Origin: Deltaproteobacteria bacterium
GTDB lineage: Bacteria; Lernaellota; Lernaellaia; JACKCT01
Assembly: GCA_027493875.1 (NCBI GenBank)
Contig: JAOSJX010000023.1
Span: 124,001-188,000, forward strand
Length of the DNA stretch: 64,000 nucleotides
Direction of reading: 5' to 3'
Shown: positions 47,317-54,360 of the stretch, one piece after another
How positions within the stretch are numbered: the first letter of the stretch is position 1
Layout: each line of letters starts with the position of its first letter
Notes under the pieces: generated by a model
Seen by the model: only the letters and a program-made list of their open reading frames with translations
What the model was told of the DNA's origin: nothing
The model's database searches: none
Made by a program: the position numbers and the translations under genes

Positions 47317-47434
47317 ATGTGTAATGGCGGGGTGTGAAAACGGCGTTCGGCCTTGCGTGAATTGCAATCTAGATATATAGTAATTGCTATGTAACGGGCT
47401 CCGCCGAGGGCGGGGAAAGACCCGGAGGAAAGAG

Positions 47435-49667
47435 ATGGGACGGACGACCAGACGGGACTTCATCAAGATCGGGGCGGCGTCCACGGCGGCGGTGGCGGCG
47501 GCTTCGGGACTCGGGACGAAGTGGTGGGGTCTCGACGCGAACACGATTCCCGATCCGGAAACCGACGGCGACCAGGTTATCTCGACCTTTTGCGAAATGT
47601 GTTTCTGGAAATGCGGCATCCTCGCCCACGTGAAGGACGGGCGGGTGACGAAGCTCGTGGGAAACCCGGACCATCCGCTCTCGCGCGGGCGGCTGTGCCC
47701 TCGCGGCACGGGCGGCACCGGCCTGCTCTACGATCCGGACCGCCTCAAGAAGCCGATGATCCGCGTGAAGAAGCGCGGCGAGGACGTTTTCGAGGAAGTT
47801 TCGTGGGACCGCGCGCTCGACGAGACCGCGGAACGCATGGAAAAGATCCGCGCGGCGTACGGCCCGGAAGCGTTCGCGCTGTTCCTTCACGGGTACGGCG
47901 GCAGTTGGTTCAAGCACCTGGTCAGCGCGTACGGATCGCCCAACGTGGCGGCGCCGTCGTACGCGCAATGCCGCGGTCCGCGCGAGGTGGGCTATCAACT
48001 CACGTTCGGGTCCGGCGTCGGCTCGCCCGAGACGATCGACATCGAGAACGCGCGGTGCGTCACGCTCATCGGGTCGCACCTCGGCGAGAACATGCACAAC
48101 ACCCAGGTGCAGGAACTGGCGGACGCCATCGGCCGCGGCGCGGAGCTGGTGGTGGTCGATCCGCGCTTTTCGACCGCCGCGGGCAAGGCGAAATACTGGC
48201 TGCCGATCAAGCCGGGAACGGACATCGCGCTGCTTCTCGCTTGGATGAACGTGATGATCGAGGAAGGGCGTTTCGACCGCGATTACATCGCGAAGCACGC
48301 GAACGGCTTTGACGAAATCAAAGCGCACGTCAAGGACAAGACGCCGGAGTGGGCGTATCCGATCACGGGGCTTCGCCCGGAACTAATCCGCGAATCGGGC
48401 CGCTTCATCGCCGCGCACCGGCCGGCGTCGCTGATTCATCCCGGGCGGCGCACGACGTGGTACGGCGACGACACGCAGCGAGCGCGGGCGATGGCGATCC
48501 TCGCGGCGCTGCTCGGAAGCTGGGGACGGCGCGGCGGGTATTTTCAGCCGGGATCGATGGACATCCCGAAGTTCCCCTACACCGCGTACGCCTACAAACC
48601 GCGGGAAAAAAGCGGACCGTCCCGCCGCGAACAAGTATCCGCTGGCGGACGAGACGCTGGCGTCGGGCCTTTGCGACGCGACGATTCCCGGCCAGGCCGC
48701 CTACGATCTCAAAGGCTGGATGGTTTACGGCACGAATCTCATCCAGAGCCTGCCGAATCCGGCGCAGACGGTCGAGGCGATCCGGAATCTCGATTTCATC
48801 GTGACGATCGACGTGCTCCCCGCGGAGATCGCCGGGTGGAGCGACATCGTGCTGCCGGAGGCGACGTACCTGGAGCGCTGCGACGAGGTTTACGCGGGGC
48901 CGTGGAAGCAGCCGTTCCTGGCGATCCGGCAGCCGGTGGTGGAGCCGATGTACGATTCGAAGCCCGGCTGGTGGATCGCGCGCGAGCTGGGGCGGCGGCT
49001 CGGACTTTCCGATTACTTCCCTTGGAAAGACAGCGTGGAATACGCGATGCACCGTGTCCACGCGGCGGGTTACGACTGCGAGGCGTTGAAAACGAAGGGC
49101 GTGGTGCTCGGCGAGAAAACGCCGACCGTGGAAGAAGAGGGGCTGCCGCCCACGTTCTTCACCGAAAGCGGCAAGATCGAGCTTTTCAGCAAGCCGCTCG
49201 AAGCGATGGGTTTCGATCCGCTGCCGGAATACCGGCCGCACGACGAAGCGCCCCACGGCATGTTCCGGCTTCTGGTCGGCCGCGCGCCCGCGCACACGTT
49301 CGGGCGGACGACCAATAACCGCTTCCTCGCAAGCGCGTACGCGGAAAACGAAGTGTGGATCAATACGGACGCGGCGAAGGCGCTGCCGGGGTTTGAAACG
49401 AAGCCGCTGAAAAGCGGCGACCGGGTCGTGTTGGAAAATCAGGACGGCGTGCGTTCGCTGCCGGTGAAAGCGCGCGTCACGGAACGCCTTCGCGGCGACG
49501 CGGTTTATCTGGTGCACGGCTTCGGCCACACGGCGGCGGGGCTCACCTACGCGCGGGGCCGGGGCGCGTCGGACAGCGAACTCATCACGCGATACAAGAC
49601 CGATCCCATCATGGGCGGCACGGGCATGAACGTGAATTTCGTGCGCGTGGACCGGGCGGAGGCGTAA
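47435..49667 (+). CDS. molybdopterin oxidoreductase catalytic subunit, polysulfide/thiosulfate-reductase-like (one frameshift)
   Basis: ATG 47435 with GGAGG. Tat signal TTRRDFIKIGAASTAAVAAA indicates folded export. A [4Fe-4S] binding set CEMCFWKCG and RLCPRG (C-x2-C-x3-C-x27-C) opens the domain. YAQCRGPRE probably supplies the Mo-ligating Cys. Further MopB text: LIGSHLGENMHNTQVQEL, VVDPRFSTAAGKAKYWLPIKPGTD, VLPEATYLERCDEVY, and the C-terminal domain with RFLASAYAENEVWINTDAAKA. One frame change near 48620. About 743 residues, close to PsrA/PhsA. With the FeS and NrfD subunits it forms a PsrABC-type quinol-linked complex at the periplasmic face. Polysulfide, thiosulfate or tetrathionate are all possible substrates. 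Confidence 0.88.
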
Positions 49668-49668
49668 C

Positions 49669-50208
49669 ATGAAAAACGGCGTCCGCTACGCGATGACGAT
49701 GGATACGAAACGGTGCGTCGGGTGCAGCGCGTGCGTGCTGGCGTGCAAGGCCGAGAACGGGCTGCCGCTCGATGGCTACCGCGACTGGATCGTGGAAGAG
49801 ACGCGCGGGAAATTTCCGAATCTCACGATGGAAATCCGCTCGGAACGCTGCAACCACTGCGAGCATCCGGCGTGCGTGGCGGCGTGTCCGACGGGCGCGA
49901 GCCACGTGGCCGAAGGCGGCACGGTGCTCGTCGAGAAAAGCAAATGCACCGGGTGCAAAGCGTGCATCGCGGCGTGTCCGTACAACGCGCGTTACGTGCA
50001 TCCGAAGGGCTACGTCGATAAGTGCACGTTCTGCCTGCATCGCGTGAAACGCGGGCAACAGCCGGCGTGCGTGGAAATTTGCCCGACGAAGGCGCTGACC
50101 TTCGGCGACATGAACGATCCGGACGGCGACGTGGCGCGGCTGTTGCGGTCGCGTCAATCCAAAGTGAGCAAGCCGGAAACGGGACTCAAACCGCGGCTCT
50201 ACTTTTGA
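49669..50208 (+). CDS. PsrB/NrfC-like four-cluster ferredoxin subunit
   Basis: Intact 179-residue electron-transfer subunit, start 2 bases after the previous stop. Cys groups in order: RCVGCSACVLACKAENG, RCNHCEHPACVAACPTGA, KCTGCKACIAACPYNARY and KCTFCLHRVKRGQQPACVEICPTKAL. That gives binding sites for four [4Fe-4S] clusters. It carries electrons between the NrfD membrane subunit and the Mo subunit. It has no own signal, so it is presumably co-exported with the Tat partner. Confidence 0.93.
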   Translation: MKNGVRYAMTMDTKRCVGCSACVLACKAENGLPLDGYRDWIVEETRGKFPNLTMEIRSERCNHCEHPACVAACPTGASHVAEGGTVLVEKSKCTGCKACIAACPYNARYVHPKGYVDKCTFCLHRVKRGQQPACVEICPTKALTFGDMNDPDGDVARLLRSRQSKVSKPETGLKPRLYF

Positions 50209-50222
50209 CATGAGGTAAGGCG

Positions 50223-50729
50223 ATGACGACGCAAACGAAATTCTGGAATCCCTACCTGGCGGGCCTGGCGCTCGGCGCGGTGCTCCTGGCGAGTTTTCTC
50301 GTCGCCGGGCACGGCCTGGGCGCGTCGGGCGCGTCGTACCGCCTCGGCGTCACGGCGCTCGACGCGATCGCGCCGGCGCACGTGGCGGCGAACGAGTATA
50401 TGGCGGGCGTCAAGGAACACGGGCTGCGCGATTGGCTCGTCTTTGAAGTGCTCGGCGTCTTCCTGGGCGGCGTCGTGGCGGCCTACACGGCGGGGCGGCT
50501 GCGTCCCGGGGTGATCAAGGGCGCGGGCGTTTCGACCGGGCGGCGCCTCGCGTTCGCGCTCGGCGGCGGCGTGCTGATGGGCATCGCGGCGCGCCTCGCA
50601 AGGGGATGCACGTCGGGCCAGGCCCTTTCGGGCGGCGCGGTCCTCTCGGCCGGAAGCTGGATCTTCATGCTGATGGTCTTCGCGGGAGGCTACGCGCTGG
50701 CGTATTTCGTGAGGAGGCAGTGGCGATGA
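50223..50729 (+). CDS. YeeE/YedE-family sulfur transporter, first half
   Basis: Intact 168-residue membrane protein. Helices: YLAGLALGAVLLASFLVAGHGLG, WLVFEVLGVFLGGVVAAYTAG and LAFALGGGVLMGIAARL. The family signature ARGCTSGQALSGGAVLSAGSW carries the conserved Cys used in thiosulfate uptake by YeeE. It corresponds to one of the two inverted halves of full YeeE. Its stop overlaps the next start (ATGA), so the second half is translationally coupled. Confidence 0.9.
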   Translation: MTTQTKFWNPYLAGLALGAVLLASFLVAGHGLGASGASYRLGVTALDAIAPAHVAANEYMAGVKEHGLRDWLVFEVLGVFLGGVVAAYTAGRLRPGVIKGAGVSTGRRLAFALGGGVLMGIAARLARGCTSGQALSGGAVLSAGSWIFMLMVFAGGYALAYFVRRQWR

Positions 50730-51931
50730 ACGGCTTTTTCTTTCCGCTGGGGATCGGTGCGGGGGAAATCGGACTCGTGACGGCCGTGCTGATCGGCTTC
50801 GGGTTCGGCTTCGTGCTGGAACGCGCGGGATTCGGCCGCGCGGACAAACTCGCGGCGCAGTTCTACCTGCACGACATGACCGTTTTCAAAGTGATGTTCA
50901 CGGCGATCGTGACCGCGATGCTCGGCCTCGTCGTGGCCGGTGAACTCGGCCTGGCGAACGTGGCGGAATTGTCGCGCGCCATCGCGAGCGAGACGTTTCT
51001 CTGGCCGATGCTCGCCGGCGGGTTTCTGCTGGGCATGGGGTTCATTATTTCCGGGTATTGCCCGGGGACGTCCGTCGTGGCGACCGCGTCGGGCCATCTG
51101 GACGGCGTGATGACCGTCGCGGGCGTCGTCGCCGGCTCGCTGATCTACGGCGAAATACAACCCGCGGCGGCGGCTTTTCATACGAGCGGCGCGCGGGGAT
51201 CGCTTTACCTTTACGAACTCGCCGGCGTGCCCGCCTGGGTTGTCGCGTTGGCGGTCACCGCGATGGCGATCGGCCTGTTCTTCGGCGCGGAGAAGGTGGA
51301 GAAGATTTTCCGCGCGAAACGCGCCGTGTCCGCGGAGCGTCCCGAGGATGTCCGGGCGGAGCGCCGGACGATGCGCCGGGCGTTCGGGACACTCGGGGCG
51401 GCGGCGGCGATGATGCTGACGGCCGCCGCGCTGCCGGTTTCCGCGACGACGGCGCCGGCGAAAACCGCGGAACCGATCGCGGCCCACGCCTTGGCCGCGC
51501 GCCTTCTCGACGAGCCGTGGAATCTGCGCGTGCTGGACGTGCGGGACCGGGAAGCCTGCGCCGAAGCGCGGGTGCCGGGAGCCGAATGCGTTCCGGCGGA
51601 CGATCTGGCCGGCCTCGGACTCCGGTACGCGGCGGGGGCGCGGGATCTCGCGATCGTGGGCGGCGAGGACGAAAGCGTCCCGGCGGAAGCGCTCGCGTAT
51701 CCCGGAAAGGTTTACCGGCTCGACGGCGGATTCGCCGCCTGGAAAGCGTACGCCTTGACCGCGCCGGAGATTCCGGAGGCGGACGCCGGGGCCGACGCGC
51801 GTGAGGACTACAAACTCCGGGCGGCGATTCACGCCGCGCTGACGGGCGCCGCGGCGGCCGCGCCGCCTCCCGCCCCGGCGCAGGTTTACGTTCCCTCGGC
51901 CCCGAAGAAAAAAGCCGGCGGCTGCAGCTAG
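50726..51931 (+). CDS. YeeE/YedE second half fused to a degenerate rhodanese domain
   Basis: ATG 50726. The first 190 residues are the second YeeE half: IGFGFGFVLERAGFGRADKLAAQFYLHD, MLAGGFLLGMGFIISGYCPGTSVVATASGHLDG (conserved Cys), and further helices. After a basic linker an internal signal-like segment begins at MRRAFGTLGAAAAMMLTAAALPVSA (ATG 51371). The following domain has rhodanese text (LRVLDVRDREACAEARVPGAECVP and YPGKVYRLDGGFAAWKAY). The active-site loop that should read C-x2-G-x-R/K-S/T is replaced by VGGEDES, so the catalytic Cys is absent. The C-terminus is Ala/Pro-rich and ends KKKAGGCS with a penultimate Cys. Likely a membrane sulfur-handling partner of the oxidoreductase. Whether the rhodanese is natively fused or a lost stop joins two genes is open. 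Confidence 0.82.
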   Translation: MNGFFFPLGIGAGEIGLVTAVLIGFGFGFVLERAGFGRADKLAAQFYLHDMTVFKVMFTAIVTAMLGLVVAGELGLANVAELSRAIASETFLWPMLAGGFLLGMGFIISGYCPGTSVVATASGHLDGVMTVAGVVAGSLIYGEIQPAAAAFHTSGARGSLYLYELAGVPAWVVALAVTAMAIGLFFGAEKVEKIFRAKRAVSAERPEDVRAERRTMRRAFGTLGAAAAMMLTAAALPVSATTAPAKTAEPIAAHALAARLLDEPWNLRVLDVRDREACAEARVPGAECVPADDLAGLGLRYAAGARDLAIVGGEDESVPAEALAYPGKVYRLDGGFAAWKAYALTAPEIPEADAGADAREDYKLRAAIHAALTGAAAAAPPPAPAQVYVPSAPKKKAGGCS

Positions 51932-51943
51932 GAGGAGCAGGCG

Positions 51944-52864
51944 ATGCACGAGACCATCACCAACCGCGCGAATCCGATGATCGATCCGGCCCTGCACATC
52001 TGGGGCTGGGAGATTCCCGTTTACCTCTTTCTCGGCGGACTCGCCGCCGGGCTCATGATTCTTTCCGCGATGCTCGCGCGGCGCGACGGGGCGCCGCTTT
52101 CGCGGTGGGCGAGGCGCCTGCCGTTCGCGGCGCCCGCGCTTCTTTCGCTGGGCATGCTGGCGCTGTTTCTCGATCTCGAACATCCGGCGCACGTTTTCCG
52201 CTTCTATCTCGCCTTCAGGCCCGCCTCGCCGATGTCGTGGGGTGCCTGGATTCTCGTGGCGATCTATCCGGCGTCGTTGTTGTACGGCCTCGCGCTGCTG
52301 ACGGACGAGGAGTGGGCGCCGGCCGCGCGCGCCGCCGGACCGTTCGAGAAGTTCCGCGCCTTCGCCGTCGCGAAGACCGGCGCGCTGGCGTGGATCAACG
52401 CCGTCCTGGGGATCGCGCTCGGCGCCTACACGGGCGTGCTTCTTGGGAATTTGGGCGCGCGCGCGGCGTGGAATTCGCCCGTGCTTGCGCCGCTTTTTCT
52501 CGTGTCGGGTTTTTCCACCGGCGCGGCGCTCGCCATGCTGTTGCCCCTTTCGCCGTCGGAAAAGCATCTGCTCCGACGCTGGGATCTCGCGGCGATCGGT
52601 GTTGAGGCGGCTTTGCTGGGGTTGTTCCTTGTCGGTTTGTCCACGGGTGGCGCCGCGACGCGTGAAGCCGCCGCGCTTTTCCTCGGCGGGGCTTTCACCG
52701 CGCCGTTCTTTGTATTCGTCGTGATCGCCGGCCTCGGCGTGCCCTTCGTTCTCGAAGCCGTTGAATGGCGGAAAAAGTTGGCGCCAACTCTGTTCGCGCC
52801 GGCGCTGCTCCTTGCCGGCGGTCTGGCGCTGCGCTGGGTTCTCGTCGCCGCGGGGCAGGCCTGA
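51944..52864 (+). CDS. NrfD/PsrC-like quinol-interacting membrane subunit
   Basis: Intact 306-residue integral membrane protein with about eight helices. It opens HIWGWEIPVYLFLGGLAAGLMILSAMLA, the NrfD hallmark. ALFLDLEHPAHVFRFYLAFRPASPMSWGAWILV follows, with the conserved LGrP-like segment. Further conserved: VLGIALGAYTGVLLGN and SGFSTGAALAMLLPL. It exchanges electrons between the quinone pool and the FeS subunit. Last gene of the operon: RBS AGGAGGAG... (AGGAGCAGGCG) precedes its start, 12 bases after the previous stop. Confidence 0.92.
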   Translation: MHETITNRANPMIDPALHIWGWEIPVYLFLGGLAAGLMILSAMLARRDGAPLSRWARRLPFAAPALLSLGMLALFLDLEHPAHVFRFYLAFRPASPMSWGAWILVAIYPASLLYGLALLTDEEWAPAARAAGPFEKFRAFAVAKTGALAWINAVLGIALGAYTGVLLGNLGARAAWNSPVLAPLFLVSGFSTGAALAMLLPLSPSEKHLLRRWDLAAIGVEAALLGLFLVGLSTGGAATREAAALFLGGAFTAPFFVFVVIAGLGVPFVLEAVEWRKKLAPTLFAPALLLAGGLALRWVLVAAGQA

Positions 52865-53386: not shown

Positions 53387-54360
53387 ATGCGAACGAGACG
53401 TCTCGGCCATTCCGATTTGAACCTGACGACGTTGGGGATCGGCGCGTGGGCCATGGGTGGACCAGGCTACGCGTTTGAATGGGGTCCGCAGGACGACAAC
53501 GATTCGATTCGCGCGATCCACCGGGCGCTTGATCTCGGCATCAATTGGATCGACACGGCGCCGGTTTATGGGCTCGGCCATTCCGGAAGAAGTGGTGGCG
53601 CGCGCGCTCGAGGGACGCCGCGACAAGGTGATTTTGGCAACGAAGTGCGGAATGGTCTGGGACAACGAGCGCAATATATCGCATCAGTTGACCAAAGCGT
53701 CTATCGAGCGCGAATGCGAAGCGTCGTTGAAACGTCTCAAAACGGATGTCATCGACCTCTACCAGATCCATTGGCCGGAGCCGCCGGACGAGATTGAGGA
53801 AGGTTGGGAGGCCGTGAACGATCTGGTCGCGGCCGGAAAAATCCGTTGCGGCGCGGTGTCTAATTTCTCGGTCGAACAAATGGCGCGGTGTTCTCAGATC
53901 GCTCCCATCACGAGTTTGCAGCCGCCGTACAGCCTTCTCAATCGAAAAGTCGAAAAAGAGATTCTTCCTTATTGCGGCGCGCAGGGGATCGGGGTCGTCG
54001 CGTACTCGCCCATCGGCAACGGACTTCTCACGGGAAAATACACGAAAGAACGCGTGGCGGCGCTGCCCCGCGTCCGATTGGCGGGGCCGCCTGTCACACA
54101 ACTTCCGGTCGCCACGGCTGGAGCGGGTTTTGGCGTTGGTGGAGGAACTTCAAAGCTTCGCGGCGGCATCGGGGCATACCGTCACGCAACTGGCGCTCGC
54201 CTGGGTTCTTCGCCGGCCGGAGGTGACTTCGGCGATCATCGGCCTCCGTAATGTGCGACAAGCCGAAGAATGCGTATCGGCCGGGGATTGGGAAGTTCCT
54301 GACGCGATCATCCAAAGTATTCATGACGCCGCGGAGAGGCATTTAGATCCCGACGCCTAG
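53387..54360 (+). CDS. aldo/keto reductase (three frameshifts)
   Basis: ATG 53387 with GAGGGG. The AKR barrel starts MRTRRLGHSDLNLTTLGIGAWAMGG. The catalytic Asp and Tyr are in DTAPVYGLGHS, Lys in VILATKCGMVW, His in LYQIHWPEP. NADPH-binding text follows: GAVSNFSVEQM, LQPPYSLLNR, VVAYSPIGNGLLTGKYT. After frame changes near 53578, 54090 and 54115 it ends VTQLALAWVLRRPEVTSAIIGLRNVRQAEE. About 324 residues. Reduces aldehydes or ketones with NADPH; physiological substrate unknown. Confidence 0.88.

Follow-up and report, generated by a model that had tools for sequence, protein, structure and literature searches.

A dead rhodanese with a C-terminal cysteine arm on the split sulfur channel YedE1-YedE2: a candidate periplasmic sulfur carrier

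In a window of 64,000 nucleotides, taken from a MAG estimated to be 78% complete, we found a channel subunit that carries its own cysteine arm: the YedE2 half of a split YeeE/YedE transporter is followed by a membrane helix, a rhodanese-fold domain devoid of its catalytic cysteine, a Pro/Ala-rich linker and the C-terminal sequence KKKAGGCS. Homologues share this architecture, the dead loop, the near-invariant terminal cysteine and much of the operon, and the tail also occurs on other scaffolds. On balance we favour the reading that the protein is a periplasmic swinging-arm sulfur carrier, linking a redox enzyme to a YedE1E2 importer of zero-valent sulfur. As such, the arm would lie outside the membrane, receive sulfur from the enzymes encoded beside it, and pass this cargo inwards. 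We found no named family and no description of a YedE2-linked dead rhodanese with a C-terminal cysteine arm in the literature searched, which covered few subscription papers. NCBIfam likewise has no match for the protein, and gives only generic rhodanese-family matches for most homologues.

Architecture of the YedE2-rhodanese protein and its operon

The open reading frame at 50726-51931 (forward strand, as are all genes of the operon) translates into 401 amino acids and stops directly after KKKAGGCS, as the preliminary description had read it. Residues 1-199 (50726-51322) form the YedE2 half, which matches PF04143 (Sulf_transp) with an E-value of 8e-15. A transmembrane helix with a basic segment before it is seen in the AlphaFold2 model at residues 206-235 (51341-51430), and is followed by the rhodanese-fold domain (residues 249-345; 51470-51760), a flexible Ala/Pro-rich linker recognisable from its composition (residues 374-393; 51845-51904), and the terminal arm (51905-51928), in which the conserved Cys400 is encoded by 51923-51925. 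The single-chain model, built with 59 sequences, has a mean pLDDT of 86, with values of at least 90 through most of the rhodanese domain and low confidence in the tail. PF00581 (Rhodanese) is matched across residues 258-341 with 23.8 bits against a cut-off of 22.2, and Foldseek aligns the modelled domain with solved rhodaneses at target TM-scores of about 0.6-0.7. By fold the protein is therefore a rhodanese, while the catalytic cysteine of the family is missing: the active-site loop reads IVGGEDES, and translation and homologue alignment place Gly312 (codon 51659-51661), the first residue of the dead loop GGEDESV (residues 312-318; 51659-51679), at its position.

The start of this gene overlaps the stop of the gene for YedE1 (50223-50729; PF04143, E-value 6.8e-22). 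Phmmer comparison with the solved StYeeE (8j4c/6leo) aligns YedE1 with the C-terminal half of that channel and puts Cys129 (codon 50607-50609) on its Cys293. Cys112 of YedE2 (codon 51059-51061), within a CPGT motif, is invariant (59/59) and falls on StYeeE Cys91 by motif alignment. The two adjacent Sulf_transp halves, each with a pore cysteine, make the pair a member of the YedE1E2/PmpAB type. For the Cupriavidus YedE1E2, import of zero-valent sulfur has been established by experiment, and both conserved cysteines are essential (PMC10812762). Homology to these proteins suggests the same import activity for the pair in the window.

Upstream of YedE1 lie genes for a PhsA-like periplasmic molybdopterin oxidoreductase with a Tat signal (47384-49667; Pfam Molybdop_Fe4S4, Molybdopterin, Molydop_binding and TAT_signal) and for a four-cluster Fe-S electron transfer subunit of the PsrB/NrfC/DsrO kind (49669-50208; Pfam Fer4_11, with NCBIfam NrfC and DsrO below cut-off). 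The YedE2-rhodanese gene is followed by that of an NrfD/PsrC-type quinone-reactive membrane subunit (51944-52864; PF03916, E-value 6e-44). This is the make-up of PhsABC/PsrABC operons, and it is kept in roughly 50 of 76 loci, where the molybdoenzyme was found 51 times, the Fe-S subunit 51 times and NrfD 55 times; these neighbourhoods were called by ORF clustering, not from annotation. Thirteen of the 76 instead have an octaheme cytochrome together with a cytochrome b whose closest match is thiosulfate reductase cytochrome b. One such octaheme (L058) matches TIGR04315, the octaheme tetrathionate-reductase family, at 570 bits. Thus, two different redox modules share one cassette of YedE1, YedE2 and arm. 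The name PhsA should be taken as that of a nearest relative, since a homologue of the molybdoenzyme (L068) has PhsA as its best named match at 519 bits, below the equivalog cut-off of 694. A gene for an OmpP1/FadL-type outer-membrane transporter, which might allow uptake of hydrophobic sulfur, occurs in 19 of the 76 loci (among L021-L093). In one locus (L042) no tail was detected, although YedE1E2 and the molybdoenzyme are both encoded there. Cultivated carriers of the operon include Carboxylicivirga linearis FB218 (L062), Anaeromyxobacter terrae SG22 (L021) and Opitutaceae EW11 (L081).

In the window, the molybdoenzyme gene spans two frames (47384-49318 and 48720-49667), with an apparent frameshift near 48600-48720. 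An aldo/keto reductase-like gene at 53387-54360 extends over three overlapping open reading frames, suggesting two further indels, and the two split genes together indicate an indel-prone assembly. The frame split of the molybdoenzyme gene is probably an assembly indel, and possibly the mark of a pseudogene. The YedE2-rhodanese gene, by contrast, can be aligned with its homologues over its full length. It had been asked whether its fusion results from a stop codon lost near 51365, but this explanation is ruled out by full-length fused homologues in dozens of genomes, 58 of which were aligned with the 401-aa protein.

What had been described as an internal signal peptide is a genuine hydrophobic segment, and it precedes the rhodanese domain in all 96 homologues. 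In about one third of cases (L004/L016, L014, L037, L043 and others) the rhodanese is encoded separately and brings its own N-terminal membrane anchor, so the internal segment is best regarded as that anchor after gene fusion, a membrane helix and not a signal peptide. Lys and Arg residues around it are more numerous before than after the segment in 65 homologues and fewer in 14, and this excess suggests that the C-terminal domain faces outwards. Furthermore, Cys278 and Cys288 (51557-51589) occur together in 20 of 59 homologues and are jointly missing from the other 39. A disulfide is what such joint behaviour would suggest, and with it an oxidising compartment; we regard the pair as a probable disulfide.

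Conservation of the dead loop and the terminal cysteine

We collected 126 loci by protein search, by profile search across 386 genomes and by a contig scan; the patterns of the contig scan were derived from the YedE2 half, and did not select for loop or tail. From these we retained 96 non-redundant rhodanese domains that are fused to YedE2 or encoded beside it. None has a cysteine at the catalytic position, which is taken by Ser (49), Gly (21), Ala (15), Asp (6), Asn (2), Thr (2) or Pro (1), and in four a cysteine stands one residue before it. As 95 other homologues lack the catalytic cysteine, a local sequencing error behind the loop in the window is ruled out. In contrast, a cysteine is found among the final three residues in 93 of the 96, compared with 49 of 1291 unrelated background ORFs (3.8%), which excludes chance. 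The co-occurrence of loop loss and terminal cysteine on which the preliminary description had staked its case is therefore clear, with no intact loop in the set and neither of the outcomes that it had named as refuting observed, and it extends over at least ten phyla (represented, by record title, are Myxococcota, Bdellovibrionota, Acidobacteriota, Bacteroidota, Ignavibacteriota, Calditrichota, Verrucomicrobiota, Planctomycetota, Spirochaetota, Chloroflexota and Fibrobacterota). Two of the three exceptions (L050 and L067) stop early, as if truncated or frameshifted. Next to the third (L114), an adjacent rhodanese ORF carries the tail cysteine (KGAGC); this upstream ORF (2-949 of that locus) is a double rhodanese with an intact first and a dead second domain. 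Two other loci also have a second rhodanese: in L092 (4771-5334) a dead one without cysteine tail lies directly 3' of the tailed one, and in L009 (2441-3265) a downstream one with an intact loop (LLYCKHGARG), itself ending in cysteine (STKDPC), adjoins an SGC-tailed pseudo-rhodanese.

In an alignment of the 93 soluble domains, with a mean column identity of 23%, the terminal cysteine is the sole invariant column, and Cys400 is found in all 59 aligned fused proteins (58 homologues and the 401-aa protein). It is the only cysteine within the last 170 amino acids in 57 of the 93. The stretch between the last tryptophan of the domain and the tail cysteine is Ala/Pro-rich and 36-86 residues long (median 64), and the ten residues preceding the cysteine hold on average 3.8 Lys/Arg. 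Where the window has AGGCS, some homologues have GGCG or GGCGG and others EGC.

The genome of the window has seven other PF00581 matches, and in the five with readable loops (L127-L130, L132) the catalytic cysteine is intact, the loops of L131 and L133 not being clearly readable. In a tree based on few columns, a single branch sets the pseudo-rhodaneses apart with moderate support (92/75; 93% of bootstrap trees). Judged from this placement, loss of the catalytic loop may have been one ancient event, and repeated recent decay is not favoured.

The tail is not confined to the rhodanese. One YedE2 (L090) lacks the rhodanese altogether and closes with a helix and the short tail EDEGC, and in Anaeromyxobacter soli (L087, 6710-7012) a small secreted protein without Pfam match, ending in KKAGGC, replaces the rhodanese. 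Twelve relatives of the latter in Anaeromyxobacter-type genomes (L137-L148) all end in KKAGGC, KKPGGC or KTAGC, and an octaheme cytochrome gene adjoins 11 of them. An AlphaFold2 model of the small protein, made without an alignment, reached a pLDDT of 48 and was not used as evidence. The strongest argument for the arm being the functional element is precisely that it is found without the rhodanese and on an unrelated secreted protein: it looks like the tail is the working part, and the rhodanese a replaceable scaffold. We would give even chances to the broader proposal that these proteins make up a phylum-spanning class of extracytoplasmic sulfur carriers, defined not by fold but by a basic, Gly-flanked C-terminal cysteine arm on a dead rhodanese, a bare anchor or a small secreted protein, and connecting sulfur import with periplasmic molybdoenzymes or octaheme cytochromes.

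A putative swinging arm and its alternatives

How might such an arm work? In the mechanism we propose, the membrane helix ties YedE2 of the split importer to a catalytically dead, periplasmic domain of rhodanese fold, which would serve as stalk or docking head for the flexible arm Lys-Lys-Lys-Ala-Gly-Gly-Cys-Ser. The terminal cysteine would take up sulfur, as a persulfide or as a thiosulfonate/polysulfide adduct, that is a product or substrate of the periplasmic redox enzyme encoded alongside: the PhsA-like enzyme with NrfD in the window, the octaheme tetrathionate-reductase-family cytochrome in other lineages. The arm would then swing over to where the YedE1-YedE2 pore opens to the outside. 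In StYeeE, sulfur passes Cys293, Cys91 and Cys22, and then Cys17 of YeeD at the cytoplasmic exit (PMC11073785), and Cys400 may be thought of as a 'zeroth cysteine' ahead of YedE1 Cys129 and YedE2 Cys112. A possible cytoplasmic acceptor is a TusA-type protein, and the genome of the window does encode a TusA at another site. The cysteine of the SoxY GGCGG motif is an established sulfur-carrying arm (PMC6067878), and a relay from that cysteine into channel cysteines has been proposed for SoxT (PMC11582611). The earlier suggestion of a persulfide carrier, built from a dead rhodanese and a mobile C-terminal cysteine, gains strength from the co-occurrence of both features, although persulfide carriage itself is putative.

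We must however take into account that the partner of the arm may be the redox enzyme and not the channel. Much like SoxY in the Sox cycle, the arm could do no more than offer a sulfur substrate to the molybdoenzyme or octaheme cytochrome in the periplasm, and the YedE pair would then have another cargo or act independently. Three loci in which small GGC-tailed proteins adjoin octaheme cytochromes (L149, L150 and L154) have no YedE within about 16-18 kb, and the arm is common to two different redox modules. Conversely, most pseudo-rhodaneses are fused to YedE2 (68 of 105) or encoded directly after it, and we regard a purely enzyme-directed arm as improbable, if the most serious of the competitors. 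Less probable still is a structural or anchoring role, with the cysteine forming a disulfide tether to YedE1 or to the enzyme complex, or a metal site, and transferring no sulfur. Disulfides are common among extracytoplasmic cysteines, and Cys278 and Cys288 probably form one, but such a bond would be unusual for a lone cysteine at the tip of a tail that is long, flexible, basic and Gly-flanked and has been retained on different scaffolds, and the soluble part often (57/93) offers no other cysteine. Finally, a cargo of selenium, or of tellurium or arsenic oxyanion products, is very unlikely: the 401-aa protein matches the selenium-transporter YedE model weakly (37.9 bits, cut-off 200), one family member has a weak ExtH match, and some Myxococcota and Acidobacteriota loci have ExtM-like cytochromes, of the selenite/tellurite operon type, in their vicinity, yet all selenium/tellurium-type matches are far below curated cut-offs, ExtM-like cytochromes stand on the same strand in only 9 of 76 loci, and the best named molybdoenzyme match is the thiosulfate reductase PhsA.

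If the swinging-arm carrier is real, a channel subunit that covalently carries its own cysteine arm would provide a direct and testable answer to how sulfane sulfur is handed over to YeeE/SoxT-type channels; transfer of the second thiosulfate sulfur has been described as occurring 'by unknown means' (PMC11582611). It would furthermore explain why a rhodanese has been kept in many phyla despite the loss of its catalytic cysteine, and the arm would be a sequence marker for a widespread, unannotated sulfur (or selenium) respiration.

Relation to known sulfur carriers and channels

The arm had at first been likened to that of DsrC. DsrC, a soluble protein that partners sulfite reductase in the cytoplasm, also handles sulfur with a mobile C-terminal cysteine, on an arm that has two of them. 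The present protein differs in having a rhodanese fold and a single tail cysteine, probably outside the membrane, and the periplasmic SoxY GGCGG arm is the closer working analogue. Like SoxY of SoxYZ (PMC6067878), it is probably extracytoplasmic, has a Gly-flanked C-terminal cysteine, with AGGCS in the window and GGCGG only in some homologues, and is encoded beside sulfur redox enzymes. It differs from SoxY in its scaffold, since Pfam and Foldseek identify the soluble domain as a rhodanese and not as the SoxY fold (PF13501), and in being membrane-anchored, fused to YedE2 and Lys-rich in its tail, with no SoxZ partner seen. Searches of the window's own genome gave no match to SoxY or to an octaheme cytochrome, and none to their controls either. 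A search for DsrA gave only a sub-threshold match. The best-supported reading by analogy is that the arm works like that of SoxY, but is not SoxY.

On the channel side, YedE1E2/PmpAB shares the two adjacent genes for Sulf_transp halves and the conserved pore cysteines (PMC10812762), while YedE2 here adds the membrane helix, the pseudo-rhodanese and the cysteine arm, and is linked to Phs/NrfD or octaheme modules. The TsuA-TsuB (YeeE-YeeD) system also lets a carrier cysteine adjoin the cysteine relay of the channel: Cys17 of YeeD, its 'fourth cysteine', sits at the exit into the cytoplasm (PMC11073785). In the system described here, the extra cysteine would instead guard the entrance on the periplasmic side, and its scaffold is unrelated.
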